IMG/VR virus record: IMGVR_UViG_3300048839_000136
Coordinates: 1 to 41,737 of that record
Reading direction: 5' to 3' (one strand)
Source: a virus
Length of the DNA stretch: 41,737 nt
Positions 9,788 through 36,158 of this stretch are shown here, piece after piece. The stretch's first letter is position 1. Each line of letters starts with the position of its first letter. A program made the position numbers and the translations under genes. The notes beneath the pieces are model-generated. The model was given only the letters and a program-made list of their open reading frames with translations, searched no databases and was not told the DNA's origin.

Positions 9788-10205
9788 CGTTCCCTCCCGT
9801 CAGATCGCGGATTTCGGAGAGGGCGGCGCGGGATACCTTCTCCGCATTCATGCACCGGACGCGCCAAGCATCCATTTGCTTCTGCAACAGGTGATGTGGG
9901 CCAGCGTTTACAGTTTCAAGCGTCGCACGAACATATTCTTTGTGGACAATCTCGACGGATTCCGCCAACGCATCCTCCGCCTTGATGAGCGCGGCGGCGA
10001 GTTGCGGGGCGAGGGCGATCAGTCGGGCGTCTGCTTCCATGCGTTCATATTCGACGTTGTAGGCGTCTGACCTTTCGACGTTTGCACTGTCGCAGGTTGT
10101 AGCTACGTCCGTTCCGTCCGTCGCGATAATGGTCGTGTCATCGACCAAATGCGTTTTCCACGGCCCCGGCGTCGCCTCGTCCAGAATTTTGCGCAGGTCA
10201 GTCAT
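9780..10205 (-). CDS. Ea22-like phage protein
   Basis: The protein has 141 residues. The N-terminus TDLRKILDEATPGPWKTHLV and the middle segment DARLIALAPQLAAALIKAED match the typical pattern of ead/Ea22-like proteins of lambdoid early regions (ATPGPW near the start, DA.LIA.....AAL later). Their function is not established. The ATG at 10205 is preferred over the GTG codons just upstream because it forms the TGATG junction seen repeatedly in this operon. Confidence 0.65.
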   Translation of the reverse strand: MTDLRKILDEATPGPWKTHLVDDTTIIATDGTDVATTCDSANVERSDAYNVEYERMEADARLIALAPQLAAALIKAEDALAESVEIVHKEYVRATLETVNAGPHHLLQKQMDAWRVRCMNAEKVSRAALSEIRDLTGGNDD

Positions 10206-10236
10206 CACCACGTCCCCTCTCTTCTTTGTGCGTCCC
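10203..10236 (-). repeat. 34-bp junction repeat, copy 1
   Basis: This element contains the last ten codons (DAQRREGTW and stop) of the gene at 10205-11029 plus the ATG of the next gene. It is identical over all 34 bases to the copy at 11027-11060. Similarity stops sharply on both sides. Confidence 0.85.
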
Positions 10237-11029
10237 GATCAAGTGCCGCAACGAAAGTCATGTCATGCTCGGCGCAATATCGGCGGAACGCGGACTCGTG
10301 TAATTCGCCGGAACGCATCTCCGTCGAGTGCCCGATAGTCCCTCCCTTCCACGAGCCTTTCCGCTCGCCGGTCTCGCCTGAAAAGGCGATTTCGAGATAG
10401 CGGGAAATCTTCGGCTTGCGAAACAGAGACAGCCACTTGAACCAGCCAACGCCGAACCGCCACTCTCTTTCCTCAATGGTGGTGCGGGCGGTCAACTCCT
10501 CGCCGTCGAAATCCTTGAACGAGAACACTGCGGCTGGCACCGCGTTGCGGGCAGCGTCGAGAACGGTCCAGGTGTCGCCGTCAAATGCGCGGCATTCAGG
10601 CTCCGTCCAGACATGCTTTCCGGTCAGCCCGTAGTGACTGCGGCGAACGTGCCGCCACTGTGTCCACGGCAGGAAGCATCCCCATCGCTGTTCCGTCGCA
10701 CTGTCATTCGTGACCCGGCCAAGCGCGATGGACAGGTGGCCGTCACTCAGGGTAAAGCCATATTCGCGCTCGCCAGTGTCCCAATAGCCGCCGTTCGGGC
10801 CGGACCAATCATGGCGCGAAGTATCGACCCACCGCCGCCACGGCTTGATGATCGCCGGAAGGGCTGAAATCAGTGTCCACCCGAAGAGACTGATGCGGAG
10901 TCGGCATCCGGCGTATTCGTCGCCGTCGCCGGAGCCAAGGATGATCCCGGTATGCCGGAAAGTCCCGTTTCTCGACAGCGTGAACGGCCCTAGATACCTG
11001 TCGTTGTCACTCCACCTGATCGCTCTCAT
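10205..11029 (-). CDS. Hypothetical phage protein of about 270 residues
   Basis: The protein has 274 residues and starts MRAIRWSDNDRYLGPFTLSR. It is rich in Trp and Arg. Phrases such as GCFLPWTQWRHVRRSHYGLTG and KPKISRYLEIAFSGETGERKGSWKGG occur in a conserved but uncharacterised family of phage proteins from Alphaproteobacteria. It has no membrane segment or catalytic motif, and the overall composition is beta-rich. Its last ten codons are one copy of the 34-bp junction repeat, and its start lies in the second copy. Function unknown. Confidence 0.65.
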   Translation of the reverse strand: MRAIRWSDNDRYLGPFTLSRNGTFRHTGIILGSGDGDEYAGCRLRISLFGWTLISALPAIIKPWRRWVDTSRHDWSGPNGGYWDTGEREYGFTLSDGHLSIALGRVTNDSATEQRWGCFLPWTQWRHVRRSHYGLTGKHVWTEPECRAFDGDTWTVLDAARNAVPAAVFSFKDFDGEELTARTTIEEREWRFGVGWFKWLSLFRKPKISRYLEIAFSGETGERKGSWKGGTIGHSTEMRSGELHESAFRRYCAEHDMTFVAALDRDAQRREGTW

Positions 11030-11060
11030 CACCACGTCCCCTCTCTTCTTTGTGCGTCCC
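11027..11060 (-). repeat. 34-bp junction repeat, copy 2
   Basis: This is the end of the gene at 11029-11262 (RDAQRREGTW, stop) together with the start codon of the next gene. It is an exact copy of 10203-10236. Confidence 0.85.
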
Positions 11061-11676: not shown

Positions 11677-12891
11677 TCACACTTGGTTTCGTCTCTTCCT
11701 GATGTCGATGACCTCGGCCACGGCGCGCGAGCGGTTGCGGACGTAACGGCCCGTCGTCTCGATCTGCGTGTGCTGGGCGGCCTGCGACAGCGTTTCTCGG
11801 CGCGCGCCCTTGGCGTCTGCCTCGCTGATGGCGCCGGCGCGGAGATCCATGCAGCGCACATCGTCTGACACGCGGCCGGCGCGGGCGAACCTGCGCCATA
11901 GCTTGCCCCACGTCTTCTGATCGTAGGGAAGGCCGGTGGACGACACGATGACGGGCCCCACGCGGCCGTTCGGCGCGATCGCTTCGAGCATCTTGCGGAG
12001 CCGTGGCAAGCCGGTGAGATCGAACCTGATCGGCTCTGGCAGGCTGTTGACGGTCTTGGAGATGACCTTCTCGAAGCCCGACAGGTTGGCGTCGAACGTC
12101 TCCCAAGTGAGCCCGTCCTGCCAGCGCCGGCCGTTGTGGACGATGCCACCCTGGCCCTGCGCCGGTAGCCACTGGCCACGCACGTCGACGGCGCGCAGGG
12201 CGAGTTCGTACTGAAGCAGGACGCCGGCCGCGAAGTGCAGGTAGCCAGCCATCCGTGCCTGCCCGACGACGCGGTAGACCTGCATCCGGCTTGGCGCGAC
12301 CTCGCGCTTCGGCGGCAGCTTGAACTTCACCATCGAAAGCGTCTCGCGCACGTCGCGCGCGCCTTCAGCCCGGATCAGGACGCCGTGCTTGATGATGGCG
12401 CGGAGCCGTTCCATCTTGCGGTGGATGAAGTCCAGCGACCGTCCCTTCGCCTTCATCGCAGACTCGATCGACATGATGGCCGGGAACGTGAGATCCGCGA
12501 TCAGCATCTCGCCGATGGCGTTCTCCCAATAGGCCAGATGGTCGTTGTAGTCGGCGCGGGTGTTCTCCTTCACGGAGCGGTACGCCGAGCCCTCGTCTGC
12601 CTTGTATCGGCCGATGAGCCACTTGATCGTGTGCGGGGCCGGGCGGCTGGCGTTGGCGCCGTCGAGCCAGCGCACCATCTCTCGCGTGAGGTCGCGGCAC
12701 TTGGCGGCTCTCTGGCGGTGCAGACCGTCTTCACGGTGCCCCTTGTCGAGCGGAAGATGAGTGATGGTGTAGCCGGCCTCGACGTATCGCCTTGGCGCTC
12801 TCCAGATCGGGTATCCGTTCGGGCGGTACATGATGCCGGGCGCGTAGTCAGGATCGCTCTCGTCCCAGAGCGCGGGTCTAAAGGCGGTCAT
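11677..12891 (-). CDS. int: Tyrosine recombinase / phage integrase
   Basis: The protein has 404 residues. The ATG at 12891 is chosen because CGGAGGA lies just upstream; an in-frame extension to 12978 has no such site. About residues 100-190 form the SAM-like core-binding domain. The catalytic domain shows Arg I in ELALRAVDVRGQ, Arg II in MDLRAGAISEA (the usual His of HxxR is Met), His at 374 in AAQHTQIETTGRY and the nucleophile Tyr at about 383. It would catalyse site-specific recombination between attP, 60 bp away, and the host tRNA gene. It overlaps the excisionase-like gene by 14 bases. Confidence 0.93.
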   Translation of the reverse strand: MTAFRPALWDESDPDYAPGIMYRPNGYPIWRAPRRYVEAGYTITHLPLDKGHREDGLHRQRAAKCRDLTREMVRWLDGANASRPAPHTIKWLIGRYKADEGSAYRSVKENTRADYNDHLAYWENAIGEMLIADLTFPAIMSIESAMKAKGRSLDFIHRKMERLRAIIKHGVLIRAEGARDVRETLSMVKFKLPPKREVAPSRMQVYRVVGQARMAGYLHFAAGVLLQYELALRAVDVRGQWLPAQGQGGIVHNGRRWQDGLTWETFDANLSGFEKVISKTVNSLPEPIRFDLTGLPRLRKMLEAIAPNGRVGPVIVSSTGLPYDQKTWGKLWRRFARAGRVSDDVRCMDLRAGAISEADAKGARRETLSQAAQHTQIETTGRYVRNRSRAVAEVIDIRKRRNQV

Positions 12892-13144
12892 GGTGGATGT
12901 GTCCTCCGGTGGTGTCAGAGGTCTCGACGATAGCACGGTCAGCCAGCTTCCGTCGCCGGGAAATCCACGCCTCGACATCGGCCTTGATCGTGAGCCCGGT
13001 GATGGCGTCCTTCGGCGGGAACTGGATCGCCTCCAGCGTCGGCCGCATCTTGCGGAACCACTCGACGGACTTGCCCATCGTCGCCGCGCACCAAGCGTCT
13101 GAGCCGAAGGCTGACACGTCGCTGAATGTGCGGTCGTGCTTCAT
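12878..13144 (-). CDS. Excisionase-like (AlpA-type) DNA-binding protein
   Basis: The protein has 88 residues. The pattern WCAATMGKSVEWFRKMRP followed by PPKDAITGLTIKADVEAWIS matches small winged-helix proteins of the AlpA/Xis type, in which a helix-turn-helix is followed by a conserved D-AW-R. Position directly before and overlapping the integrase gene supports a directionality-factor role. The C-terminal 20 residues are charged and unstructured. Excisionase function is inferred from context. Confidence 0.7.
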   Translation of the reverse strand: MKHDRTFSDVSAFGSDAWCAATMGKSVEWFRKMRPTLEAIQFPPKDAITGLTIKADVEAWISRRRKLADRAIVETSDTTGGHIHHDRL

Positions 13145-19026: not shown

Positions 19027-19113
19027 TGGAGAGGTTACTGCCTGTCCGTAATGGGTTCGGTCAACGGCTGCGGTTGGCTGCTCCCCCACTTTTTCGCAGC
19101 ACAGGAGAGACGG

Positions 19114-19515
19114 ATGGAACTAGCAGTCCACCAGAACAAGATCATCAACACGTTCGACAAGATCGGGTCGCGCGAGAAGGAGCGCGCCTCGGATGCCGGC
19201 GAGGATCGGGAAGAGATCGGCAAACTGCTCGACCTCACGAACCTGAACAAGAAGGCCGTGTCCTTCTGCCGGATGCTGCACAAGCAGGAGCCCGACAAGC
19301 GCGCCGACATCATCCGGTCGCTGAAGCCGCTGCTCGACCTCATGGAGAAGCATTGGGACGGGCAGAACACGCCGGACATGTTCACCGGCAAGCCGGATGA
19401 GCCGGCCGAGCCTGAAGGCCAGCCGGAATCGACCTACGAGGGCAGCAATGCCGAGATCGCGGCCGAGGACGCGGCGTTCGAGGCGCACCTGGCGAACGTA
19501 GAGGCGGCCGAGTGA
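19114..19515 (+). CDS. Hypothetical coiled-coil early protein (possibly GapR/DUF2312-like)
   Basis: The protein has 133 residues, with the ATG at 19114 behind AGGAGA. Residues 1-80 are a charged helical region (NKIINTFDKIGSREKERASD, LNKKAVSFCRMLHKQEPDKR) whose spacing of acidic helices and a final LLDLM recalls the DUF2312/GapR type of nucleoid proteins of Alphaproteobacteria; the match is weak. The C-terminal 50 residues are Pro- and Glu-rich and probably disordered. It overlaps the resolvase gene by 4 bases. A DNA-associated role is only inferred. Confidence 0.5.
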   Translation: MELAVHQNKIINTFDKIGSREKERASDAGEDREEIGKLLDLTNLNKKAVSFCRMLHKQEPDKRADIIRSLKPLLDLMEKHWDGQNTPDMFTGKPDEPAEPEGQPESTYEGSNAEIAAEDAAFEAHLANVEAAE

Positions 19516-24338: not shown

Positions 24339-24553
24339 GCAGCGCAATTTTTACGATGTCGGAGATGGAGGCGGCCGACGCGGCCGATCGGATCAACGCC
24401 TATTGGCGAGAGCGCGGCCTGTGGGCCAATGCGCGGGCCGAGTTCACGATTGTACGCGGCATCAAGTCGTGGGGCGTGCGATCCGACACGATCAACGGTC
24501 GGCCAGTTGCAGTCGACCGACGCATGACAGTCATTCCGATAGGTGCGACATGA
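24335..24553 (+). CDS. Small hypothetical protein downstream of dnaB
   Basis: The protein has 72 residues, coupled to dnaB (ATGA) and to the next gene (ATGA). It has an N-terminal helix (EMEAADAADRINAYWRERGL) and a short beta hairpin after it (KSWGVRSDTINGRPVAVDRR). This pattern is common in alphaproteobacterial phages but no role is known. Confidence 0.55.
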   Translation: MSSAIFTMSEMEAADAADRINAYWRERGLWANARAEFTIVRGIKSWGVRSDTINGRPVAVDRRMTVIPIGAT

Positions 24554-25059
24554 AGAAAGTAAACCAAGACTTCCTTGCCGCGCTACAGATGGCTGGCTGG
24601 CTCATCAAGGCGGTTGACGAGGATCGGGCCACGGTCAGTTGCCCTCGGGCCGGGTGCGGGCTCGATCTCACCTATCGCCCTGGCGGGAAGATCCACGAAG
24701 CCTGCGCCAAGGAGCCGACGATCGCGCAATGCGCCGTCGAGTTGTTTGCGGACGCGCGCAAGTTCCTGCGCCAGCGCCGCGAGGATCTGGGGTTCTCGAT
24801 CAAGGATGTGGAAGAGGTGGCTGGCATGGCCGTCGATCACCTTGCCAAATTCGAGAAGGACGACGCTTACCGCATTCCGAACGCGCAGATTTTCTTCGAG
24901 TGGGCGCGGGCGCTGGGCTACCAGGTTGTGCTGCGTCCGCATCCGAAGGGCCTACCCAACTACGCGCTCCGCATGGTGGCAGAGACGCGCGACAAGCAGA
25001 CGATGCGCCGGCACCATTTCCGGGTGCACGGCGCACGTCGCGATCCGCAGGACGAATAG
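24550..25059 (+). CDS. XRE-type HTH regulator with N-terminal Cys motif
   Basis: The protein has 169 residues. Residues 31-55 contain CPRAGCGLDL followed by EAC, possibly a small metal site. At about 75-115 is a Cro/C1-type helix-turn-helix (FLRQRREDLGFSIKDVEEVA then DHLAKFEKDD). The tail YQVVLRPHPKGLPNYALRMV is typical of phage XRE proteins of this size. It is the last gene of the rightward early operon, which suits a delayed-early regulator of late transcription. Whether it activates or represses cannot be told. Confidence 0.68.
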   Translation: MKKVNQDFLAALQMAGWLIKAVDEDRATVSCPRAGCGLDLTYRPGGKIHEACAKEPTIAQCAVELFADARKFLRQRREDLGFSIKDVEEVAGMAVDHLAKFEKDDAYRIPNAQIFFEWARALGYQVVLRPHPKGLPNYALRMVAETRDKQTMRRHHFRVHGARRDPQDE

Positions 25060-26946: not shown

Positions 26947-26979
26947 GTGCATTGAACCACACCGAGGACGCGCACAATC
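26947..26979 (+). promoter_or_regulatory. Late element 1 (GTGCAT ... CACAATC)
   Basis: GTGCATT at 26947 and CACAATCC at 26973 (26 bases apart) precede the ATG at 26989, with CTCGCCCGC between. There is no Shine-Dalgarno sequence before this ATG. The same arrangement recurs upstream of 28444, 30048 and 35562, so this is a candidate late promoter. Confidence 0.5.
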
Positions 26980-26988
26980 CTCGCCCGC

Positions 26989-27495
26989 ATGAACGCTCTA
27001 GCCCCGCAAAATAAGTCCGACATCGTGCGCAAAGCGCCACGGATGCGCCCCGCACTGCGTCAAGCCGTCTCCCTCATCGTAGAACAAGGCATGACACAGA
27101 GAGCGGCCGCAGGCCGGGTGGGCATGAACGAGACAGCTCTAGGCAGAGCCCTCCAACGCAAAGACATCGCCGCATACGTCGAAAGCCAGAAAGCCTTACT
27201 CGCGCTAGATGCCGACAAAATCAAGGCAAGAGGACGATCCATGGCCCTCCTCGTCGGAATCGACCTCCTGCATAACGCCCAATCCGAAGCCGTAAGGGCC
27301 AGAATGGTCGAGTTCTTCGCGGGGGAGGCACGAGCGGCGCCGTCTGTGAGCGTCACTGTGAACCAGAATGCGGGTGGCGGCTATGAGTATGTGCGGCCGG
27401 GCCAAGTCATTGAAATCGTTGAAGGCAAGGCGAGCGCACCAGATAGGCAATCTGGTGGCGAGAACGCGCAACCCATTGATGATAATGAGGAATAG
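26989..27495 (+). CDS. HTH protein, candidate small terminase subunit
   Basis: The protein has 168 residues. The N-terminal part RPALRQAVSLIVEQGMTQRA then AAGRVGMNETALGRALQRKD (about 21-60) is a helix-turn-helix like that of small terminase (TerS) proteins. The middle is helical for oligomerisation, and the C-terminus GYEYVRPGQVIEIVEG and an acidic tail could contact the large subunit. It is the first rightward late gene, 0.9 kb before the large terminase gene with two small genes between. TerS binds the packaging site; a general regulator is the alternative. There is no ribosome site. Confidence 0.55.
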   Translation: MNALAPQNKSDIVRKAPRMRPALRQAVSLIVEQGMTQRAAAGRVGMNETALGRALQRKDIAAYVESQKALLALDADKIKARGRSMALLVGIDLLHNAQSEAVRARMVEFFAGEARAAPSVSVTVNQNAGGGYEYVRPGQVIEIVEGKASAPDRQSGGENAQPIDDNEE

Positions 27496-27505
27496 CCCAA
27501 GTCTG

Positions 27506-27576
27506 TGATCGTGCCCATGATCACACCCGCCCAGCTCGAGGGGGCCGGGGGTATCCATCGAGGGGGGGGTGGGGGG
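27506..27576 (+). other. Non-coding G-rich block, possible packaging site
   Basis: The gap 27496-27723 holds no gene. It starts with an inverted repeat (TGATC ... GATCA, 27506-27523) and then has four G tracts of 5-8 bases within 27539-27576, able to form a G-quadruplex on the plus strand. It lies between the candidate small terminase and the large terminase genes, a usual place for cos or pac. Confidence 0.4.
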
Positions 27577-27658
27577 AAAATCGCGCCGCGCAGTAAGGCA
27601 GTCGACCCTCTCCCTCGCGCGTTTCGAAATTTTTCTACCTCAATCAAACATCGTTTTG

Positions 27659-27690
27659 GTGCATTAGGTGGCAAAGCGCCATCGTTTATC
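27659..27690 (+). promoter_or_regulatory. Late element 2, partial match
   Basis: GTGCATTAGG at 27659 is followed 26 bases later by TTTATCC in place of CACAATC. It is 65 bases before the ATG at 27724, which has its own GGAGGG ribosome site. It has the left half of the late element only. Confidence 0.3.
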
Positions 27691-27723
27691 CGTTCAATAC
27701 GAGATTGTTTTGGAGGGTATCAG

Positions 27724-28155
27724 ATGGCTCGTGAGAAGGTTGGTTCGGACATGGGGCAGTTCCGGTTTCCTGATGGGACGTTTGGCCGGATTGAGGCGCT
27801 GGGGCATGTTCGCCCTGATTTTGTTCGGGAGGCGGTTATGGACCGTCTTGCGTTTTTCGAGGGGGGTGGTGAGCGGGAGGTTCCTGTGGCGGCGCGGCCT
27901 GCGGAGGCGCCGGTTCGGAACGCTGTCCCTGTGCGGCCAGTGGTTCCGGTTCGGCCGGTTGTTCGGAAGCGTGGGAAGCGGGACTGGTCTGGGGACTACG
28001 AGCGTGTGCTTGGCGTTGTGCGTGAGCGTCTTCGGTCGTCGCGGGAGCTTGCGTCTGATCTTGGGTGGCCTGAGACGCGGGTTGAGGCGGTTGTGTCTGC
28101 GATGGAGTTGGAGGGGCTGGTTCGGTTCGAGCGTGGCGGTGTGGTTGCGGTATGA
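27724..28155 (+). CDS. DNA-binding-like protein of unusual codon use
   Basis: The protein has 143 residues, with the ATG at 27724 behind GGAGGG. The N-terminal FRFPDGTFGRIEALGHVRPD could be a ribbon-helix-helix-like part. The middle is a Pro- and Val-rich linker (VRPVVPVRPVVRKRGKR). The C-terminal 60 residues form a winged helix (YERVLGVVRERLRSSRELAS, LGWPETRVEAVVSAMELEGL). Codons ending in T and the codons GTT, CGT and CTT are frequent, in contrast to the C-ending codons of its neighbours, which suggests recent arrival. It is coupled to the next gene (ATGA). The role is unknown; a regulator or packaging-associated protein is possible. Confidence 0.55.
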   Translation: MAREKVGSDMGQFRFPDGTFGRIEALGHVRPDFVREAVMDRLAFFEGGGEREVPVAARPAEAPVRNAVPVRPVVPVRPVVRKRGKRDWSGDYERVLGVVRERLRSSRELASDLGWPETRVEAVVSAMELEGLVRFERGGVVAV

Positions 28156-28403
28156 TAAAGAAGGTCACGAGCCTCTTCGGCGGACCGACGGGAGAGAGGA
28201 CCGTCAACGAAATAGCGGTAGCGGCGCTTGAAGAGTTGCTGGAAAAGGCGAGGTCCGGCGAGATTGTCGGCATCGCCGTCGCGGCCCTTCATTACGACGG
28301 ATGCGGCTCCTTTCAGTTGGCGGGACGGGTCGGAGGCTATTCGATGCTCGGGGCGCTGGACGATGCGCATTCACGGGTCATGGAAATCGTGAAGTCCGAG
28401 TGA
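28152..28403 (+). CDS. Small hypothetical phage protein
   Basis: The protein has 83 residues. The core GIAVAALHYDGCGSFQLAGR followed by GGYSMLGALDDAHSRVMEIV is a conserved small phage domain without known function, found in early or packaging regions. Codon use returns to the GC-rich type here. The ATG overlaps the previous stop. Confidence 0.6.
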   Translation: MIKKVTSLFGGPTGERTVNEIAVAALEELLEKARSGEIVGIAVAALHYDGCGSFQLAGRVGGYSMLGALDDAHSRVMEIVKSE

Positions 28404-28440
28404 GTGCATAGTCAGGCCACCGCTTCCGTGCTGATCTCGT
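28404..28440 (+). promoter_or_regulatory. Late element 3
   Basis: GTGCATAGTC at 28404 begins directly after the upstream stop codon, and CTGATCTCGT ends 3 bases before the large terminase ATG at 28444. The right half is less exact than in copies 1, 4 and 5. The ATG has no clear Shine-Dalgarno sequence. Confidence 0.45.
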
Positions 28441-28443
28441 GGC

Positions 28444-29994
28444 ATGGCGCTTCAGAAGACACCCCGGGGGAACAACGTCTACCTTCCTGACGGCGAGGTT
28501 CTGACGGACTACTTTTGGGATCGGTCGGAACTGGCGATCATCCAGGGGCCGATCCAGTCTGGCACGTCGACGTGTTCGTGCCACCGGATCTGGGCGCTGG
28601 CGTGCGAGCAGGAGGCCGACTACGACGGAGTTCGGCGGTCTCGGTGGCTGGTGGTGCGGAACTCGTACCGGGAACTGCGGAAGACGACGCTGGAGACGTG
28701 GCTGGAGTGGTTCCCCGAGAACGAGTGGGGGACGCTGATCCGGTCGGAGCCGATGACGCACGTCCTGATGCAGAAGCAGCCGGACGGGACGATGGGCCAG
28801 CGGACGCATCCGTCCGGCGACGGGACCATCGTTCACTGCGAGGTCATCTTCATCGCGATCGACAGCCCCGAGACCGCGGAGCAGGTTGCCGCGTCGTTCG
28901 AGATCACCGGATTTTTCGTGAACGAGGGCCAGTTCGTCGACAAGGGCGTCGTGGACGAGCTTCTTTCCCGCTGCGCACGCTACCCGTCGATGAAGAACGG
29001 GCCCGGCGCCACATGGCATGGCGGCTTCATCGACCTCAACGCGCCGGTCGAGGGGCACTGGATACCCTACATGCGCGGCGACATCCCCATGCCGGAAGAA
29101 TGGACAGAGGAGCAGAAGTCGGAGTTCCGCAAGCCCGAGGGTTGGACCTTTTTCGTGCAGCCGCCAGGCCTCATCGAGAAGAAGATCGAAGGCAAGATCG
29201 TGTACGTCCCGAACCCGAGCGCCGAGAACCAGTCCCATACCCGCAAAAGCTACCTCGAAATCATCAAGGGGAAGAAGAAGGAATGGATCGACCGCCGCGT
29301 TCTCAACAAGGTCGGGCTCTACGCTGATGGAAAAGCCGTCTACCCGACCTTCTCCGAGCAAGACCATGTTGCGCCGCGCGCTCTCACGCCTATCGACGGC
29401 GCTCCGGTCATCGTCGGCCTCGACTTCGGCCGCGACCCGGCCGCCGTCTTCTGCCAATGCGTCAACGGACAGTGGACGGTCCTCTCGGAACTGATCGGCG
29501 ACAACGAAAGCGCCCAACTCTTCGCCCCGCGCGTGCGCCGGCACCTCGCGCAACGCTTCCCCGGCCACAAATCCGAGTTCTGGGGAGACCCGCGCGGCGC
29601 AGATGGCGGCCAGAACGTCGAGACAACCGCCTACGACGTGTTCCAGGCGCAGGGAATGCGCGTCCTGCCCGCCACCACGGACAACAACCCGGAAATGCGC
29701 CGGTCCACCGTCGAAAGCGTCCTCGATCGACGCTACGCCCTCCAGATCGACACCGCCTGCATCACCCTCCGCACCGGCCTCGCCGGCGGATACCACTACC
29801 CGAAGATCAAGGGCGTCTCCGGCGTCTATTCAGAACGCCCGCGCAAGAACCGATACTCCCACGTCGTCGAAGCCCTCGAAAACGCGCTCATGGGCGGCGG
29901 CGAAGGCGATGCCGTCGTCATCCCGTCCTCGCGCCCAAAGTCCAGGCCGTCGAAGATCCACAGGCACCGCGTCTCCCTACGGCGCGTCGCCTGA
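28444..29994 (+). CDS. terL: Terminase large subunit
   Basis: The protein has 516 residues. It packages DNA into the prohead through an N-terminal ATPase and cuts it with a C-terminal RNase H-fold nuclease. The ATPase region starts ELAIIQGPIQSGTSTCSCHR, where the Walker A has Thr in place of the usual Lys (GPIQSGTS at 35-42). HCEVIFIAIDSPETAEQVAA may contain the Walker B region and VNEGQF the coupling Glu. The nuclease starts with VIVGLDFGRDPAAVF (first catalytic Asp), with later acidic sites in EFWGDPRGADG and near the end. It is followed by virion genes in the usual order. Confidence 0.9.
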   Translation: MALQKTPRGNNVYLPDGEVLTDYFWDRSELAIIQGPIQSGTSTCSCHRIWALACEQEADYDGVRRSRWLVVRNSYRELRKTTLETWLEWFPENEWGTLIRSEPMTHVLMQKQPDGTMGQRTHPSGDGTIVHCEVIFIAIDSPETAEQVAASFEITGFFVNEGQFVDKGVVDELLSRCARYPSMKNGPGATWHGGFIDLNAPVEGHWIPYMRGDIPMPEEWTEEQKSEFRKPEGWTFFVQPPGLIEKKIEGKIVYVPNPSAENQSHTRKSYLEIIKGKKKEWIDRRVLNKVGLYADGKAVYPTFSEQDHVAPRALTPIDGAPVIVGLDFGRDPAAVFCQCVNGQWTVLSELIGDNESAQLFAPRVRRHLAQRFPGHKSEFWGDPRGADGGQNVETTAYDVFQAQGMRVLPATTDNNPEMRRSTVESVLDRRYALQIDTACITLRTGLAGGYHYPKIKGVSGVYSERPRKNRYSHVVEALENALMGGGEGDAVVIPSSRPKSRPSKIHRHRVSLRRVA

Positions 29995-30026
29995 GTGCAT
30001 TGGCCTGAAACCGGCTCCTCACCATC
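29995..30026 (+). promoter_or_regulatory. Late element 4
   Basis: GTGCATTGGCC at 29995 and CACCATCCTCGCC starting at 30020 lie between terL and the next gene. Here the ATG (30048) has a true ribosome site AAAAGGAG after the element. The element is thus separate from translation signals and more likely transcriptional. Confidence 0.5.
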
Positions 30027-30047
30027 CTCGCCGCAAAAGGAGCCCAC

Positions 30048-30527
30048 ATGGCAGAGATCGTCGACCTCCCCGAAGACCTGTCGTCCACAAGCGACATGTA
30101 CCTCATCGTCTACCGAGACTCCGCGGGCGCGCAGAAGTCGCGCAAGATCGCGCGCGACGCCTTCCTGGAAATCGTTGCGTACCTCGACGACGACGTGTCG
30201 TTCGGAATCGCCACATGCGATGAGGTCGTCGCGCAGACCTCGCTCACAATCGGCGCAACCGTCGTCACATCCTGCATCAAGGCGACCGGAACCCTCACCC
30301 TCTCGGCCATCGCTGATGGCGCCTCAGAAACCGACACCTTCGCCGTCTCCGGCGCCGCAGCGGGCGACGTGGTGCTCCTCACCGTCGATGCCCCGGCTGA
30401 TGGCCTCGCCTTCAACGCCTACGTCTCGGCCGCCGATACCGTCACCGTGAAATCCGGCAACTTCTCGGGATCGCCCTTCGCCGGCGCCAGCTACCCCGTC
30501 TACATGCTCGTGATCAGGGCCGCATGA
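30048..30527 (+). CDS. Putative head fibre / virion surface protein
   Basis: The protein has 159 residues. The N-terminus (DLSSTSDMYLIVYRDSAGAQ then KIARDAFLEIVAYL) follows the same design as the N-terminus of the fibre at 85-1302, suggesting the same attachment mode. The C-terminal 90 residues are a beta-sandwich type repeat seen in small phage decoration proteins (VVTSCIKATGTLTLSAIADG, AADTVTVKSGNFSGSPFAGA). It lies between terminase and portal genes. The function is inferred from composition and position. Confidence 0.55.
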   Translation: MAEIVDLPEDLSSTSDMYLIVYRDSAGAQKSRKIARDAFLEIVAYLDDDVSFGIATCDEVVAQTSLTIGATVVTSCIKATGTLTLSAIADGASETDTFAVSGAAAGDVVLLTVDAPADGLAFNAYVSAADTVTVKSGNFSGSPFAGASYPVYMLVIRAA

Positions 30528-30934
30528 TCGTCGAGTGGTTCGTCGGCTTCCATCCGCGCTACCTTCGCGCACTCTCCGGCATCCTCACGATGACCGGCCT
30601 CTGGGGTCACTGCGAAATCTGGGGATACACCGTCGACGACACATGGATCTTCATCGACCCGCAGGGCAGGGTCGGAACCCGCGTCGTCGTCACGCACCTC
30701 TACGATGAGGTCATGGCCCAACTCGAAGCCCGCCACATCCTCTGCGAAACCATCCTGAAACTGCCAGCGGAAGGCGAATTTTCCTTCCTCCCCGTCTTCC
30801 CGCCCATGACCTGCGCCTCGATCGTCGGCCACATTCTCGGCGTCCGTGCATTTACCCCGGCCGGTCTGAAACGGAAGTTGCTCCGCAAAGGCGCGGAGAT
30901 CGTTCATGACACCCAAGGAAGACCCCAAGGATAA
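30524..30934 (+). CDS. Hypothetical protein, possible papain-like fold
   Basis: The protein has 136 residues. WGHCEIWGYTVDDTWIFIDP followed by MTCASIVGHILGVRAFTPAG has the look of circularly permuted NlpC/P60-type proteins often encoded near podovirus portal genes: a His in HCEIWG and a Cys in MTCASIV could form the pair. This is a structural guess with no family proof. The start overlaps the upstream stop, and the end overlaps the next gene by 29 bases. Confidence 0.5.
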   Translation: MIVEWFVGFHPRYLRALSGILTMTGLWGHCEIWGYTVDDTWIFIDPQGRVGTRVVVTHLYDEVMAQLEARHILCETILKLPAEGEFSFLPVFPPMTCASIVGHILGVRAFTPAGLKRKLLRKGAEIVHDTQGRPQG

Positions 30935-31136
30935 AGCCGATCGACTGCGCCAGCGTCGCATCGCGCAAGTCGACCGGATGCAGAGCGCCCAGGAAAACGC
31001 ACAGGGCCTCACAACCGACCTCCGTGGCGTCTATGGCCTTCGGGCCCTCTCCGCATTCGGCATGGGCGGCGGCATCGGCCCGTCGCGAACCGCACGGCCA
31101 ACGACATCGCTCTCGGGCGGCGGAAAGTCGAAGTAA
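30906..31136 (+). CDS. Small hypothetical protein before the portal gene
   Basis: The protein has 76 residues. The charged N-terminal helix (KEDPKDKADRLRQRRIAQVD) and Gly- and Ser-rich tail (SRTARPTTSLSGGGKSK) suggest a partly disordered virion or packaging accessory. Small proteins of this kind commonly precede connector genes in T7-like phages. The stop overlaps the portal ATG by one base. Confidence 0.5.
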   Translation: MTPKEDPKDKADRLRQRRIAQVDRMQSAQENAQGLTTDLRGVYGLRALSAFGMGGGIGPSRTARPTTSLSGGGKSK

Positions 31137-32638
31137 TGAACAAACCCTCCAAGGATTTCAGCACGCGCTACTCGGCCGCGAAGCAATGGCGCGATGCGGA
31201 GCGCCCCTACATCGAGGAAGTGCTGAAGTTCTGCTGCCCCGGCCGCGAGAAGGATTTCACCACGGCCGCAACCTCCAAGAACCAGAACGACACGGAAACA
31301 TACCTCTCGCTGCCAGAGGAATGCGCGACCGATCTGGGCGGCGATCTCGTCACCTACTTCACTCCGTCAGAGGTACGCTGGGCCACCTACGAGGTCGTGC
31401 AGGACATCCCCGAGGAAGCCGCCGACACCGTGCTCGAAATCGTGCAGGACCGCGAGGACAAGCTGTTCTCGCTCATCGAGGCGTCCAACTACAACGACAT
31501 CGCCCCGCAGTGGGGCTTCGAGGCGGCAACCCACGGAACCCCCGCCCTATGGGTGCAGGCCGCCCACATCGCGCAGCCGATCTTCGTAGAGGCCGTTCTT
31601 CCACACGAACTCCTCACGACGCCCGGCCACATGGGCATCCTCGACCGCTTCCGTGAGCGGTGGGTGCTCGCCGAAACGCTACCCACGCTCTTCTTCGGCC
31701 TCGGCTACAACCTCGCCGACCCGAAGATCCAAGCGAAGATCAAGAAGCCCGGCGCAATGGCGAAAGTGTGCTGGGGCTATTGGGTCTCATGGGAAGACCC
31801 TGGCTTCCCGATCTGGCTGTCCGAAGTGACCGTCGACGGCATCCGCGTCTCCCAGGAGCGCGAGCCGATCGGCCCCCTCGCCGGCGCCTGCCCGCTTCTC
31901 GTCGGCCGATTCAACCCGCAGCCAAATCGCCCGTGGGGCCGCGGCGCCGGACGCAAGGCGCTCCCAGACATGCGCGTCTTCGACAAGCTGGACGAGATCG
32001 TCCTGTCCGGCCTCGATCAGTCCGTCATGAACACCATCATCTACCCGGATGACGGCTTCCTCGACATGTCCGAAGGCGTGCAGGCCGGGCGCGCATACGC
32101 CGCGCACCGCGGATTCACCCGCGATCAGATCTATGACCTCTCGCGCAACGTGAACGTGGATCAGGGGTGGTTCGCCGAAGACCGGATGGAAGACCGCATC
32201 CGCCGGGCGTTCTATCAGGACGGCCCGCGCCAGCGCGGCGAAACCCCGCCCACGGCAGCACAGTGGCTCGACGAGCGCCGCCGCGTGCAGCAACGCCTCG
32301 GAAAACCATCCGCGCCCCTGTGGTCGGAACTCATCCTGCCGATGATCCAGCGGTTCGAGTACGTCGGCGTCCAGATCGGCGAACTCCCAGACGCCATCAC
32401 GCACAACGGCCGCGCCATCTCCGTGCGCCCGATCTCGCCGCTCCAGAAGGCGCAGAACCAGGACAAGGTGATGGTCTCGCGCTCGAACCTCGATCTCGGC
32501 TTTGCCGTCTTCCAAGATCAGGTTTCGTCCTTCATAGACCCCGTGCAGACGTTCCAGAATATCGTCCGCGCGTCGGGCGACGAACTGACCGTCATCCGAA
32601 AGGAACAAGCCCCTGTCGCTCCCGATACCGCTCAGTGA
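31136..32638 (+). CDS. Portal / head-to-tail connector protein (T7 type)
   Basis: The protein has 500 residues, near the 536 of T7 gp8. The N-terminal FSTRYSAAKQWRDAERPYIE, YLSLPEECATDLGGDLVTYF, GFEAATHGTPALWVQ, the central GKVCWGYWVSWE-like stretch and RFNPQPNRPWGRGAGRKALP, then MVSRSNLDLGFAVFQDQ near the end, fit the head-tail connector family of podoviruses. Twelve copies would form the ring through which DNA enters and leaves the head. It is followed by scaffold and capsid genes as in T7. Confidence 0.85.
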   Translation: MNKPSKDFSTRYSAAKQWRDAERPYIEEVLKFCCPGREKDFTTAATSKNQNDTETYLSLPEECATDLGGDLVTYFTPSEVRWATYEVVQDIPEEAADTVLEIVQDREDKLFSLIEASNYNDIAPQWGFEAATHGTPALWVQAAHIAQPIFVEAVLPHELLTTPGHMGILDRFRERWVLAETLPTLFFGLGYNLADPKIQAKIKKPGAMAKVCWGYWVSWEDPGFPIWLSEVTVDGIRVSQEREPIGPLAGACPLLVGRFNPQPNRPWGRGAGRKALPDMRVFDKLDEIVLSGLDQSVMNTIIYPDDGFLDMSEGVQAGRAYAAHRGFTRDQIYDLSRNVNVDQGWFAEDRMEDRIRRAFYQDGPRQRGETPPTAAQWLDERRRVQQRLGKPSAPLWSELILPMIQRFEYVGVQIGELPDAITHNGRAISVRPISPLQKAQNQDKVMVSRSNLDLGFAVFQDQVSSFIDPVQTFQNIVRASGDELTVIRKEQAPVAPDTAQ

Positions 32639-32693
32639 GCCCGGCCCGCTTCTCACCTACTACTCGCGCGCCCGCGCCGCAGACCCGAAGAAG

Positions 32694-32924
32694 ATGGACA
32701 AGGCCATCGCCGCGATCCGCGCGATGCTCTCTACGCCAGATGGCGCTATCTTCTTGGAAATGCTGGAAAATTCGACGGTAAACTGGCGCGTTCCCATCCT
32801 CGCCGACGACCGTGCATTAGCGGCACGCAATGCTCAGAGTTTCATTGCGCTCGATCTCAGGAGGATCATGAGCGATGAAACTGAACAACTTCTTGACCGA
32901 CAAAAGACTTCGGAACGCACCTGA
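32694..32924 (+). CDS. Small hypothetical protein between portal and scaffold genes
   Basis: The protein has 76 residues from the only ATG/GTG/TTG start in frame. The frame stays open to just after the portal coding end, and the bases upstream read as plausible protein (LSEPGPLLTYYSRARAADPK). A CTG at 32613 with AAAGGAAC before it could be the true start, giving 103 residues and overlap with the portal gene. The C-terminal part (AARNAQSFIALDLRRIMSDE) is helical. The gene overlaps the scaffold start by 50 bases. Function unknown. Confidence 0.5.
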   Translation: MDKAIAAIRAMLSTPDGAIFLEMLENSTVNWRVPILADDRALAARNAQSFIALDLRRIMSDETEQLLDRQKTSERT

Positions 32925-33642
32925 CGGCGGCACCGGCCTCCCGCCTGACCCGAATGCTGCCCCGCCCGCAGCAACCCCGGCCCCGGCTGTCCCTGCCTCA
33001 TCCGTGCCGGGGCCGGACCTCTCCTTCATCCCGGCTGACTACCTCGTCGACGGAAAGCCCGACACGACGAAGTTCTCGGAGCACTACACCGAACTCGTCG
33101 CCGACGCCGCGCGCAGGGCCGACCGGCTGAAGGAAGTCCCCACGGATGGCGTCTATGACTACACGCTGCCGCAGGACTTCAGCTTCGGCGACCTCGAACT
33201 CCCCGAAGGCTTCACCGTGCAAGTGTCCGACGACCCGGCCATCGCGCCGCTTCTCGGCGAACTCGGCACGATCCTGAAGGAACTCGACGCCCCGAAGGAA
33301 GCAGGCCAGAAGATCGCCGGCCTGATCGCCCGCTACGAGGCGACCAAGTTCGCCGACATGCTGAAGGCCCAGGCCGAAGATCTGAAGGTGCTTGGTACTC
33401 CGGCACAGGTGCAGGCCCGCAAGGACGCCCTGAAGCGCGTGATCGACTCGCGCGTCCCGGCCGACCTCGCACAAGCGATCCATCTCGACCACGCCAGCGC
33501 GGCGCAGATCAAGGTACTCGAAGCCCTTGCCATGCCGCGCACCGCCCAAGTTCCGCCGGCCCGGCCTTCCGCGGTCGATACGGAAGGCATGTCGGCTTAC
33601 GACATGTTGAAAGCAGCAAACGCCCAGCAGGCACGAGCCTGA
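32875..33642 (+). CDS. Scaffold / capsid assembly protein
   Basis: The protein has 255 residues. The Pro- and Ala-rich N-terminus (about 15-45) is followed by SFIPADYLVDGKPDTTKFSE, then VYDYTLPQDFSF and a long helical stretch (about 120-215), ending in SAYDMLKAANAQQARA. Acidic, helical, without beta core and immediately before the major capsid gene, this is the usual phage scaffold pattern. It guides prohead formation and leaves before maturation. Confidence 0.75.
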   Translation: MKLNNFLTDKRLRNAPDGGTGLPPDPNAAPPAATPAPAVPASSVPGPDLSFIPADYLVDGKPDTTKFSEHYTELVADAARRADRLKEVPTDGVYDYTLPQDFSFGDLELPEGFTVQVSDDPAIAPLLGELGTILKELDAPKEAGQKIAGLIARYEATKFADMLKAQAEDLKVLGTPAQVQARKDALKRVIDSRVPADLAQAIHLDHASAAQIKVLEALAMPRTAQVPPARPSAVDTEGMSAYDMLKAANAQQARA

Positions 33643-33662
33643 CGAGCAGAAAGGACTAGATC

Positions 33663-34634
33663 ATGGTGCATACCCTGCCCGAGTACGCGAAGACGGTCCC
33701 CGACCTGAAGTCGCGCGCAGTGATGGAACTCTTCCCGGCCGAGGCCGACATCCTCGGCGTCATCCCGTTCAAACCCGCCCCCGGCGGCCGCTACGGCTAC
33801 ATGCGTGAAGGCGCCCTGCCGAACAACATGGGCTTCCGCGGCATCAACGAAACGCCGTCCGAAGGCCACGGCCTGATCAACGACTACACCGAGCAGTGCT
33901 TCCCGATCGCCGGGAACATCGACGTGGACCGCGTGCTGATCAACCGCTACGGCATGGAGCGCCGCTCGATGGAAGAGCGGATGTCGATCAAGAAGAAGGC
34001 GAAAGTCTGGATCGACACGTTCATGGACGGCGACAACGCCACCGAGCCGCGTGAGTTCACTGGCATCAAGCAGCGCCTCCAGGCTGTCGGGTCCGGCGCC
34101 ACGTCGGTCGATGGCTCCAACTACGAGTCGCGGCTGATCGCCAACTCGACCGCTTCGGGCGGCGGCGCGCTGTCGCTCTCGATGCTCGACCTCGCGATCT
34201 CTCTCGTCGAGAACCCGACCCACATCCTCATGCCGAAGAAGATGAAGCATCGCCTTCCGGCTGCGGTTCGGGATGCCGGCGTCGGCGGTCTCTACACCAA
34301 CGACAAGAACGACATGGGCCACCGCGTCGAGATGTATGACGGTCTGCCGATCCTGACCGGCTACGGCATCACGCCGCTCGGTGCGTTCCTGCCGTTCAAC
34401 GAGGTCGGATACGGTGGCGGCTCAGCCGTGACGTGCTCGATCTACGTCATGTCGTTCACCGAAATGGGCGTCTGCGGCATCGAGACCTCGGCGATGGAAG
34501 TCAAGGATCTCGGTCTCCTCGACGATGGTGTCTACTACCGCACCAACATCGAGCACGACACGGGTATCTGCATCGAAAGCCCGTATGCGGCCATCCGGCT
34601 CTCGTCGATCACCGACGCGGCCATCGTGAAGTAA
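33663..34634 (+). CDS. Major capsid protein
   Basis: The protein has 323 residues. Position after the scaffold gene, an AAAGGAC-type ribosome site, and a sequence with an N-arm (VHTLPEYAKTVPDLKSRAVM), an E-loop-like part (RYGYMREGALPNNMGFRGIN) and a P-domain helix region (RSMEERMSIKKKAKVWIDTF) fit an HK97-fold capsid protein. The C-terminal part MEVKDLGLLDDGVYYRTNIE ends on the shell. The size suits a podovirus shell protein. Family naming is by context and fold pattern. Confidence 0.8.
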   Translation: MVHTLPEYAKTVPDLKSRAVMELFPAEADILGVIPFKPAPGGRYGYMREGALPNNMGFRGINETPSEGHGLINDYTEQCFPIAGNIDVDRVLINRYGMERRSMEERMSIKKKAKVWIDTFMDGDNATEPREFTGIKQRLQAVGSGATSVDGSNYESRLIANSTASGGGALSLSMLDLAISLVENPTHILMPKKMKHRLPAAVRDAGVGGLYTNDKNDMGHRVEMYDGLPILTGYGITPLGAFLPFNEVGYGGGSAVTCSIYVMSFTEMGVCGIETSAMEVKDLGLLDDGVYYRTNIEHDTGICIESPYAAIRLSSITDAAIVK

Positions 34635-34646
34635 GGAGCAACAGCA

Positions 34647-35084
34647 ATGGCATTCTCGAAATTCTACGCCTTTGACGCCCTTGCTGGCGTCCTGAAGCGC
34701 GATGTCGGCCTCGCGGCGCTGACCTCGGACGGCTACGTCGGAACGCAGTGGGACCAAGGCGCTGCGGCGCTGACCGACTGCGTTCTGGTGATCAACGTCG
34801 AGTCGATCGACGTGGCCGGCACGGACGAGATCTACAACTTCCGCGTTGTGGGCTCGAACGTGGCTGACCGATCGGATGGCGAGGTTCTGGCCGAGCGCGT
34901 GCTGGGTCACATCACCGCCATTCCGGGGCCGGAGACCGTCACCACGGCCGCAGGCGATCAGCATGTCGTTCCGTTCCGCACGGAGAAGAATGGCACCGCG
35001 TTCCGCTACATCGACCTGCACCTCGACGTGACCGGCGCCACGGCGTCGATCGGCTTCAACGCCTTCATCTCGAAGGAGATCTGA
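34647..35084 (+). CDS. Capsid decoration/cement-like structural protein
   Basis: The protein has 145 residues, with GGAGCAACAGC before the ATG. It is a beta-rich sequence (ALTDCVLVINVESIDVAGTD, FRYIDLHLDVTGATASIGFN) with no catalytic residues. Directly after the major capsid gene, such proteins usually decorate the head. A similar length and composition is seen in minor head proteins of related phages. Confidence 0.6.
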   Translation: MAFSKFYAFDALAGVLKRDVGLAALTSDGYVGTQWDQGAAALTDCVLVINVESIDVAGTDEIYNFRVVGSNVADRSDGEVLAERVLGHITAIPGPETVTTAAGDQHVVPFRTEKNGTAFRYIDLHLDVTGATASIGFNAFISKEI

Positions 35085-35085
35085 C

Positions 35086-35445
35086 ATGCCGAAGATGGTA
35101 AGGCTCGCTGCCAGTCAGACGTATGTTCCCAAGACCGACGAGGACAAGAAGGTCTTCGACGCGATCAAGAAGCGCGGTGTCATGGAGATGTCCTACGTCA
35201 CCGCGCGCGAGAACGTGAAGAACTCGAAAGGTATGCTCACGTTCTACGCGCCGGAACCGGTAGCTGCCGCGGCCCCTGGCCCGCGTCGGCTGGAGGACAT
35301 GGACATGGACGAACTGAAACTGTCCATGCTCTCGCTGGGCATCAAGACCCAGAAGAAGATGAAGCGCGACGACGTGATCCGCCTCATCCGCGACAGGATG
35401 AGCGAGGTGGAGATCGTCGACGACGAAGACGACGGCGCAGAGTAG
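35086..35445 (+). CDS. Virion protein with HeH/SAP-like C-terminal helix motif
   Basis: The protein has 119 residues. The C-terminal segment LEDMDMDELKLSMLSLGIKT then MKRDDVIRLIRDRM (about 64-105) has the two-helix pattern of HeH/LEM/SAP domains, as found in T4 and other phage head-closure or terminator-type proteins. The N-terminal VPKTDEDKKVFDAIKKRGVM is basic. It is the last gene before a terminator, in the position of a head completion or adaptor protein. Confidence 0.6.
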   Translation: MPKMVRLAASQTYVPKTDEDKKVFDAIKKRGVMEMSYVTARENVKNSKGMLTFYAPEPVAAAAPGPRRLEDMDMDELKLSMLSLGIKTQKKMKRDDVIRLIRDRMSEVEIVDDEDDGAE

Positions 35446-35490
35446 GCGCCCGCGAGCAGACGATCCTCCCGGTTCGGCTGGCGTCGAGGG

Positions 35491-35516
35491 AAGGGGCGGG
35501 GCAACCCGCCCCTTTT
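35491..35516 (+). terminator. Rho-independent terminator after the capsid block
   Basis: AAGGGGCGGG-GCAA-CCCGCCCCTT forms a 10-bp GC-rich stem with a GNRA-type loop (GCAA), followed by TTTT in total. It lies 46 bases after the stop at 35445 and just before late element 5, so it would end the capsid transcript before a fresh start for the tail genes. Confidence 0.85.
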
Positions 35517-35520
35517 CCAT

Positions 35521-35553
35521 GTGCATAGGGCCGGAAAGGCCATCGCCACAATC
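35521..35553 (+). promoter_or_regulatory. Late element 5
   Basis: GTGCATAGGGCC at 35521 and CACAATC at 35547 (26 bases apart) are followed by TCGCCGAC and the ATG at 35562, with no Shine-Dalgarno sequence. The element starts 5 bases after the capsid terminator, as expected for a promoter following a terminator. Confidence 0.55.
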
Positions 35554-35561
35554 TCGCCGAC

Positions 35562-36158
35562 ATGGCTACGAACCCTTCAATGCTCTCCATCATGAACGCG
35601 GCGCTTCTGTCGACCGGCTGCGATGAAGTAGTCGACGGAGAAGGCTCGAACGAGTGGCGCCTTCTGAGCCGCAACTGGCCCCTCATCGTCGAGGCGGAAC
35701 TGGAGGATGGCAACTACAACTTCACCCGCGAGACAAGGCAGATCACGACCTACTCGACCGGGAAGTATGGCTTCGAGTACGCCTACGCCATCCCGCTCAC
35801 GGCCGTTGCAGTCCGGCATGTGTGGACCGAGACCTCGGACGGCGTGCGCGACATGTCGATCGACTGGACGCAGGACGCGACCCACATCCACTCGCGCGAA
35901 GACGAGGGGATATGGATCGAGTACCTGACATGCGCCGCCGAGAGCCTGTGGTCTGCGAACTTCTCGCGCGGCGTGCAGATGAAGCTCGAAGCCACCATCC
36001 TTCGCGCGATCCGCGAGGAATACCCGGAAGCCCTCCAGGCCGAGCAACAGGCAGAGGTCTATTTCCAGCGCGCCCGCACGCTTTCGTCGCGGTCACGGTC
36101 GGCCCGATCCCCGTACAGGGAGGGGCAGCTTGCCGCGGCCCGGTTCGGCCGTGGCTAG
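35562..36158 (+). CDS. Tail tubular protein A-like (gp11 type)
   Basis: The protein has 198 residues, the same as T7 gp11 (196). SNEWRLLSRNWPLIVEAELE followed by NYNFTRETRQITTY is the characteristic start of TTPA proteins in T7-like phages, and LWSANFSRGVQMKLEATILR is the conserved C-terminal helical part. It forms the ring below the connector. The end overlaps the next gene by 29 bases. Confidence 0.85.
   Translation: MATNPSMLSIMNAALLSTGCDEVVDGEGSNEWRLLSRNWPLIVEAELEDGNYNFTRETRQITTYSTGKYGFEYAYAIPLTAVAVRHVWTETSDGVRDMSIDWTQDATHIHSREDEGIWIEYLTCAAESLWSANFSRGVQMKLEATILRAIREEYPEALQAEQQAEVYFQRARTLSSRSRSARSPYREGQLAAARFGRG

Follow-up and report, generated by a model that had tools for sequence, protein, structure and literature searches.

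The window analysed here, a 41.7-kb virus record with 64% GC taken at its full length, belongs to a temperate podovirus of the RecE/RecT/DnaB type, in which genes for RecE/RecT, RuvC, a RepO-like protein and DnaB are followed by the late genes. These include terL (28444-29994, plus strand) and the genes for the portal (start 31136), the capsid (start 33663), the tail adaptor (start 35562) and the nozzle (start 36130). The nearest relatives are metagenome phages and prophages of marine Rhodobacteraceae, the latter carried by Roseovarius (R. amoyensis GCL-8, for example), Primorskyibacter, Oceanicola, Jannaschia, Pseudooceanicola (P. endophyticus CBS1P-1) and Ruegeria (Ruegeria sp. EL01), and TerL is 35% identical to that of Burkholderia phage BcepC6B and 43% identical to that of Microcystis phage Mwe-JY08. 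The latter (L137, PP395640.1) has 65% GC in the compared stretch, is of lysogeny type and is kin to Rhodobacteraceae phages; a second look at its Microcystis host assignment may be worthwhile. A contig binned as a Flavobacteriaceae MAG (L029) carries a Rhodobacteraceae-type prophage of this group, and that binning is likely wrong. Towards the other side of the window, the minus-strand gene at 10205-11035 strongly matches the CBASS inhibitor Acb3 (Pfam PF25187, E=2.7e-84) and is probably an anti-defence gene of the phage. The minus-strand gene at 11680-12978 encodes a protein of 433 aa that matches neither Pfam nor NCBIfam and is kept in five related records at the same end, a position that suggests an integrase of unrecognised type.

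Eight copies of GTGCATW are present in the window, every one of them on the plus strand and within 26.9-35.6 kb (26947 to 35521), with none on the minus strand. An earlier note had paired such copies with a right half, CACAATC, and proposed the pair as a late promoter. Exact pairs of the form GTGCATWG-N(14-22)-CACMATC do lie where it had placed them, at 26947, 29995 and 35521, on the plus strand only, and none of 100 dinucleotide shuffles of the window contains even one. The combined-PWM scan of the window alone returns 6 sites against a shuffle mean of 3.0 and maximum of 6, and this excess is modest, so it is the genome comparison that carries the proof. The copy at 33666 falls within the first bases of the capsid gene and seems to have arisen by chance.

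Viewed from left to right on the plus strand, the putative late promoter of the terS-like gene (26947-26989; site 1) has its box, GTGCATTG, at 26947-26954 and a -10-like ATCCTC with its A at 26977 and its T at 26981. Its predicted +1, 26988/26989, falls at the ATG, making the message leaderless by prediction, and orthologous sites precede terS in relatives. A probable late promoter before the ORF at 27725 (27659-27699) combines box GTGCATTA with a -10-like TATCCG at 27687; an ordinary Shine-Dalgarno sequence (GGAGG) follows the predicted +1 at about 27699, and similar sites lie between terS and terL in relatives. The probable terL promoter (28404-28444), recognised in the note as a looser copy, has box GTGCATAG, a weak -10 (TGATCT) and the ATG at offset 40, and is again leaderless by prediction; clade C relatives (see below) carry GTGCGTTGAG at the same place. 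Palindrome-like words, TGTAATACA/GTATTAC, are repeated and clustered upstream of terL in several relatives (L013, L028, L059, L072 and L075, between terS and terL), and may possibly mark an operator or packaging site.

Beyond terL, the candidate promoter of the gene at 30048 (29995-30035) has a GTGCATTG box that abuts the terL stop codon, a -10-like ATCCTC (A at 30024, T at 30028) and a predicted +1 near 30035, giving a 13-nt leader with AAGGAG. Site 2 (30846-30886) lies inside the ORF at 30524-30931 and before the ORF at 30906, with box GTGCATTT and a -10-like GAAGTT. Site 3 (32812-32852) falls in the last part of the ORF that precedes the gene in the scaffold position, 32875, with box GTGCATTA and a weak -10. 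An intrinsic terminator at 35498-35516 (plus strand), a GC hairpin with a T-run ending at 35516, closes the capsid block and is present at the orthologous site in most relatives. Site 4 (35521-35562), the copy said to follow a strong terminator, lies between it and the tail-adaptor gene at 35562, with box GTGCATAG, a -10-like AATCTC (A at 35550, T at 35554) and the ATG at predicted +2, hence leaderless by prediction; this place too is conserved in relatives. The late genes named as lying downstream do begin with start codons at 26989, 28444, 30048 and 35562. The copies at 27659 and 32812, listed as left halves only, do carry the box and are probably working sites rather than half sites. The list was also incomplete: it had missed 30846, which comparison marks as a conserved site and which is probably likewise a working site.

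The proposed right half did not hold. Across relatives the second element takes the degenerate form A(-11)...T(-7), of which CACAATCTCGCC is a local version. Expectation maximisation on 57 candidate sites outside the window, a few of them probably false, learned the box ANNNTC(C/G)(C/G), which begins at offset 29/30 at 46 of these sites, with a score of 300.8 against 146 ± 9 (maximum 172) in 100 null runs. Its conserved A and T (frequencies 0.79 and 0.89) are four apart, like positions -11 and -7 of sigma70 promoters, so the sigma70-type -10 feature is present; the TTGACA of a -35 element is not, and a GTGCATWK box takes its place. Given normal -10 geometry, GTGCATTG would sit at about -40 to -33. 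No consensus sigma70 promoter was found by a scan of 26.5-36.5 kb, as is expected if an activator is needed. A search of viral contigs with a bipartite pattern containing CACMATCN(0,1)TCGCC gave only near-identical copies (L018, L019) and a chance pair (L016, L017), and CACAATC itself was rejected as the signal.

The same geometry bears on translation. The A of the ATG falls at predicted +1 in 26 of the 57 sites and at +2 in a further 16, so that in 42 of 57 transcription is predicted to begin on the ATG or one base before it. This supports the suggestion made earlier that late messages are leaderless, with their 5' end predicted at the A of the ATG. Mapping in Sinorhizobium, also an alphaproteobacterium, yielded 171 leaderless AUG mRNAs, and conservation of the sigma70 -10 is poor there (PMC3616915), which makes a degenerate -10 and leaderless starts plausible in this phage.

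The strongest evidence comes from about 60 TerL relatives. Wherever the locus covers them, and with the exception of clade C, GTGCAT is found on the coding strand at the same four places: before terS, at about +320, +2300 and +5000 from the end of terL, the last of these directly after a terminator and before the tail-adaptor gene. The orthologous positions extend to relatives with TerL identity down to about 40%, and the spacer between the boxes is free to vary in sequence. The boxes of sites 2 and 3 (+320 and +2300) fall within the upstream ORF, with an ordinary Shine-Dalgarno sequence and ATG 60 bases further on, and unbiased tblastn mapping allowed codons to be counted there. Alanine at the box is encoded by GCA in 46/46 cases at site 2 and 35/35 at site 3 (about 11% and 10% in the terL background), arginine by CGT in 43/46 and 28/28 (background about 8%), and leucine at site 3 by TTR in 31/31. 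Conserved residues neighbouring the box use mixed codons; the fixation of rare codons at the box itself reflects selection on the DNA. A terminator lies immediately upstream of site 4 in 23 of 36 candidates, compared with 7% of random late positions. In seven full or near-full records further matches occur past the tail genes (for example G012 42334 and 42878, and G016 40938); single-record counts in the PWM scan of seven records barely exceed shuffles, and the strength lies in orthology. Three relatives, L076-L078, do not serve as negatives, since GTGCGTTGAG takes the place of the usual box in them. Neither box form precedes the late genes of BcepC6B or of Pelagibacter phage Hodr.

The full box pattern is a phage signal. 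Sixteen Rhodobacteraceae genomes gave 12 matches, including one within a prophage, where the control gave 5, and the lack of a clear surplus argues against a host regulon. A stricter pattern that includes the -10 and CATG matched two family members among 11 contigs, the others being chance-like, and the element thus appears limited to this phage group. There were no Rfam family matches in 26-36 kb, and our literature search found neither a paper with GTGCATTG as a phage promoter nor a description of late promoters in these Rhodobacteraceae prophages.

Among the genes common to all seven records, only that at 24550-25056 (plus strand) has a regulator fold. It directly follows the replication genes, ahead of the late block, and encodes a candidate cognate activator of 169 aa with an N-terminal Cys-containing domain and a Cro/CI-type HTH domain of the XRE family (Pfam HTH_3, PF01381; E=2.9e-7, 30.9 bits, cut-off 23). 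Its AF2 model (pLDDT 89.6, pTM 0.57) matches mainly XRE domains in Foldseek (HipB, SinR and DdrO, E at least 0.02), and among its invariant residues are both N-terminal-domain cysteines and, in the recognition helix, K100. Homologues accompany 31 of 35 loci with upstream sequence, as well as the L013 and L061 records, but were found in only 2 of 395 Rhodobacteraceae genomes; tblastn found none in INPHARED phages, a single-protein search of viral contigs gave no match, and the XRE alignment was too divergent to use. One homologue in a Rhodobacteraceae chromosome (G075:C1:2478988-2479452; L117-L119) has no clear GTGCATTG late promoters nearby, and this locus is perhaps a decayed prophage or a regulator retained by the host.

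Box and candidate reader also vary together, three clades having three box forms and three XRE recognition helices. Clade A, which includes the window, has the helix ..DHLAK.. and GTGCAT with mostly [TA][GT] after it; clade B (L070-L074) has ..GYVNK.. or a close form and box GTGCATTGCG, whether the site is coding or not. Clade C (L076-L078, L083 and Mwe-JY08) has GTGCGTTGA(G) at the orthologous sites, including a terL start that is leaderless by prediction, and in two records a diverged XRE protein whose helix reads ..GYTGK..; no XRE gene shows up in the 14.1 kb of another of its records, L076. In the GTGCGTTG clade the XRE proteins (L137 8260-8778; L114, minus strand, 1435-2187) have the HTH match only, without the N-terminal Cys domain of the other two clades. 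This co-variation is circumstantial and no more than suggestive, because three clades are few and they share ancestry while differing in lineage and GC.

Judged from these comparisons, the conserved element is real, and its strand, its restriction to the late region, the terminators upstream, the -10-like box at fixed spacing, the orthologous positions and the constraint on DNA make the late-promoter interpretation offered earlier by far the likeliest one. We infer that the element drives transcription, with sigma70 as its sigma factor and with leaderless translation. It is probable, in our assessment, that GTGCATTG and ANNNTC(C/G) 29-30 bases on form a late promoter at which a phage activator, likeliest the XRE protein, replaces the -35 contact. 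Host RNA polymerase with sigma70 would read the weak -10, while a phage-made DNA-binding protein on GTGCATTG, at about -40 to -33, would substitute for the missing contact. As the XRE-type product of 24550-25056, the likeliest such protein, built up, each late block (terS, terL, the pre-portal ORFs, scaffold and tail) would be turned on from its own promoter, and as the predicted +1 of the terS, terL and tail-adaptor blocks falls on the ATG, their mRNAs would be leaderless. The weak -10 at 28404 and at 32812 weighs against this model.

The XRE protein is thus probably the reader of GTGCATTG, and we infer that it binds the box and activates transcription. XRE proteins usually bind palindromes as dimers, whereas GTGCATTG is not palindromic, which counts against this assignment, as do the clade C proteins that match in the HTH alone and the L076 record in which no XRE gene shows up. 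Other conserved genes of no known function, such as 19051-19512, leave it short of proof. That gene likewise recurs in every one of the seven full records and matches no family, and it, or a small unannotated protein, could read the box at otherwise genuine promoters while the XRE protein serves, for example, in early repression. We consider this unlikely, as, of the genes found in all records, the XRE gene alone encodes a protein with a recognised DNA-binding regulator fold, it adjoins the late block, and the helix changes of its product track the box.

The two-box layout with a fixed spacer, and a left box close to the -35 position, would also suit an alternative sigma factor, host-encoded or an unrecognised phage product, reading GTGCATTG as -35 and the right box as -10. 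This is less likely still, since no sigma-like gene was found among the scanned proteins, host genomes show no clear enrichment of the pattern, and the -10 keeps the sigma70-typical A(-11)/T(-7) while the left box varies by phage clade. Stoperator-like repressor sites that silence late genes in the lysogen are a somewhat weaker candidate again. XRE proteins are often repressors, mycobacteriophage stoperators are likewise asymmetric and oriented with transcription, and Pfam recognises no separate CI-like repressor in the window. However, the sites are confined to the starts of late blocks with a -10 at fixed spacing and an ATG at fixed distance, site 4 shows no second promoter despite the preceding terminator, and Mwe-JY08 has a LexA-like gene separate from its XRE gene. 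The ATG close behind sites 1 and 4 would also fit a signal tied to translation or to gene starts, or a site for packaging or recombination, but such a reading is very improbable given the position of sites 2 and 3 inside an upstream ORF, the terminator before site 4 and the lack of Rfam matches.

Should the activator reading hold, these boxes would be a late-gene code, readable from sequence, for a widespread and uncharacterised group of Rhodobacteraceae prophages. It would permit operon annotation from sequence alone, and the predicted master regulator could be used to induce or block these prophages. The three clades form a ready-made series in which variants of the protein are paired with variants of its DNA site, and if the leaderless prediction holds, why virion genes rely on leaderless translation becomes a question. 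More tentatively, and with slightly less than even confidence, we suggest an undescribed switch in which an XRE fold with a Cys domain captures sigma70 through an asymmetric, -35-replacing box at each late block, box (GTGCATWK, GTGCATTGCG, GTGCGTTGAG) and reader change together, and the packaging and tail operons are leaderless.

Among described systems, the middle promoters of T4 use a MotA box at -30 with AsiA and a sigma70 -10 (PMC6024815). The putative promoters here similarly place a phage-specific box in the -35 region and keep a sigma70 -10, but their box lies at -40 to -33 rather than centred at -30, has another sequence, and would be read by an XRE-HTH protein, a fold that MotA does not have; they also drive late genes, with many starts leaderless by prediction. 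No MotA or AsiA homologue was matched by Pfam, PHROG or NCBIfam among the submitted ORFs, and the putative late promoters of the window would work like T4 MotA promoters without being members of that class. P2 and Mu have several late promoters, one per block, with a small phage activator (Ogr and C, respectively) encoded before the late genes, an arrangement that the per-block promoters and the candidate small activator here resemble. Ogr is a zinc-finger protein that binds near -55 at sites with dyad symmetry, unlike the single asymmetric box at -40 to -33 and its XRE-fold candidate.

The GafYZ and GafA promoters of gene transfer agents in Caulobacter and Rhodobacter combine a degenerate -35, a phage-derived activator and sigma70 (PMC11150451, PMC6363796), and, as here, belong to prophage-like elements in Alphaproteobacteria. 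GafY binds far upstream and needs IHF (PMC11150451), whereas the candidate reader would bind at -35; GafA is DnaA-like and sigma-like, whereas the candidate matches HTH_3/XRE only; and those elements have one main promoter where this phage has a box at each late block. The location of the regulator gene between replication and late genes recalls lambda. There Q acts at a single late promoter, from which transcription reads through, whereas here new promoters follow the terminators. No phage RNA polymerase of the T7-like single-subunit kind was found among the scanned proteins. On present sequence evidence, a private -35 box at each late block with an XRE-type candidate reader appears to differ from the described phage systems compared here.
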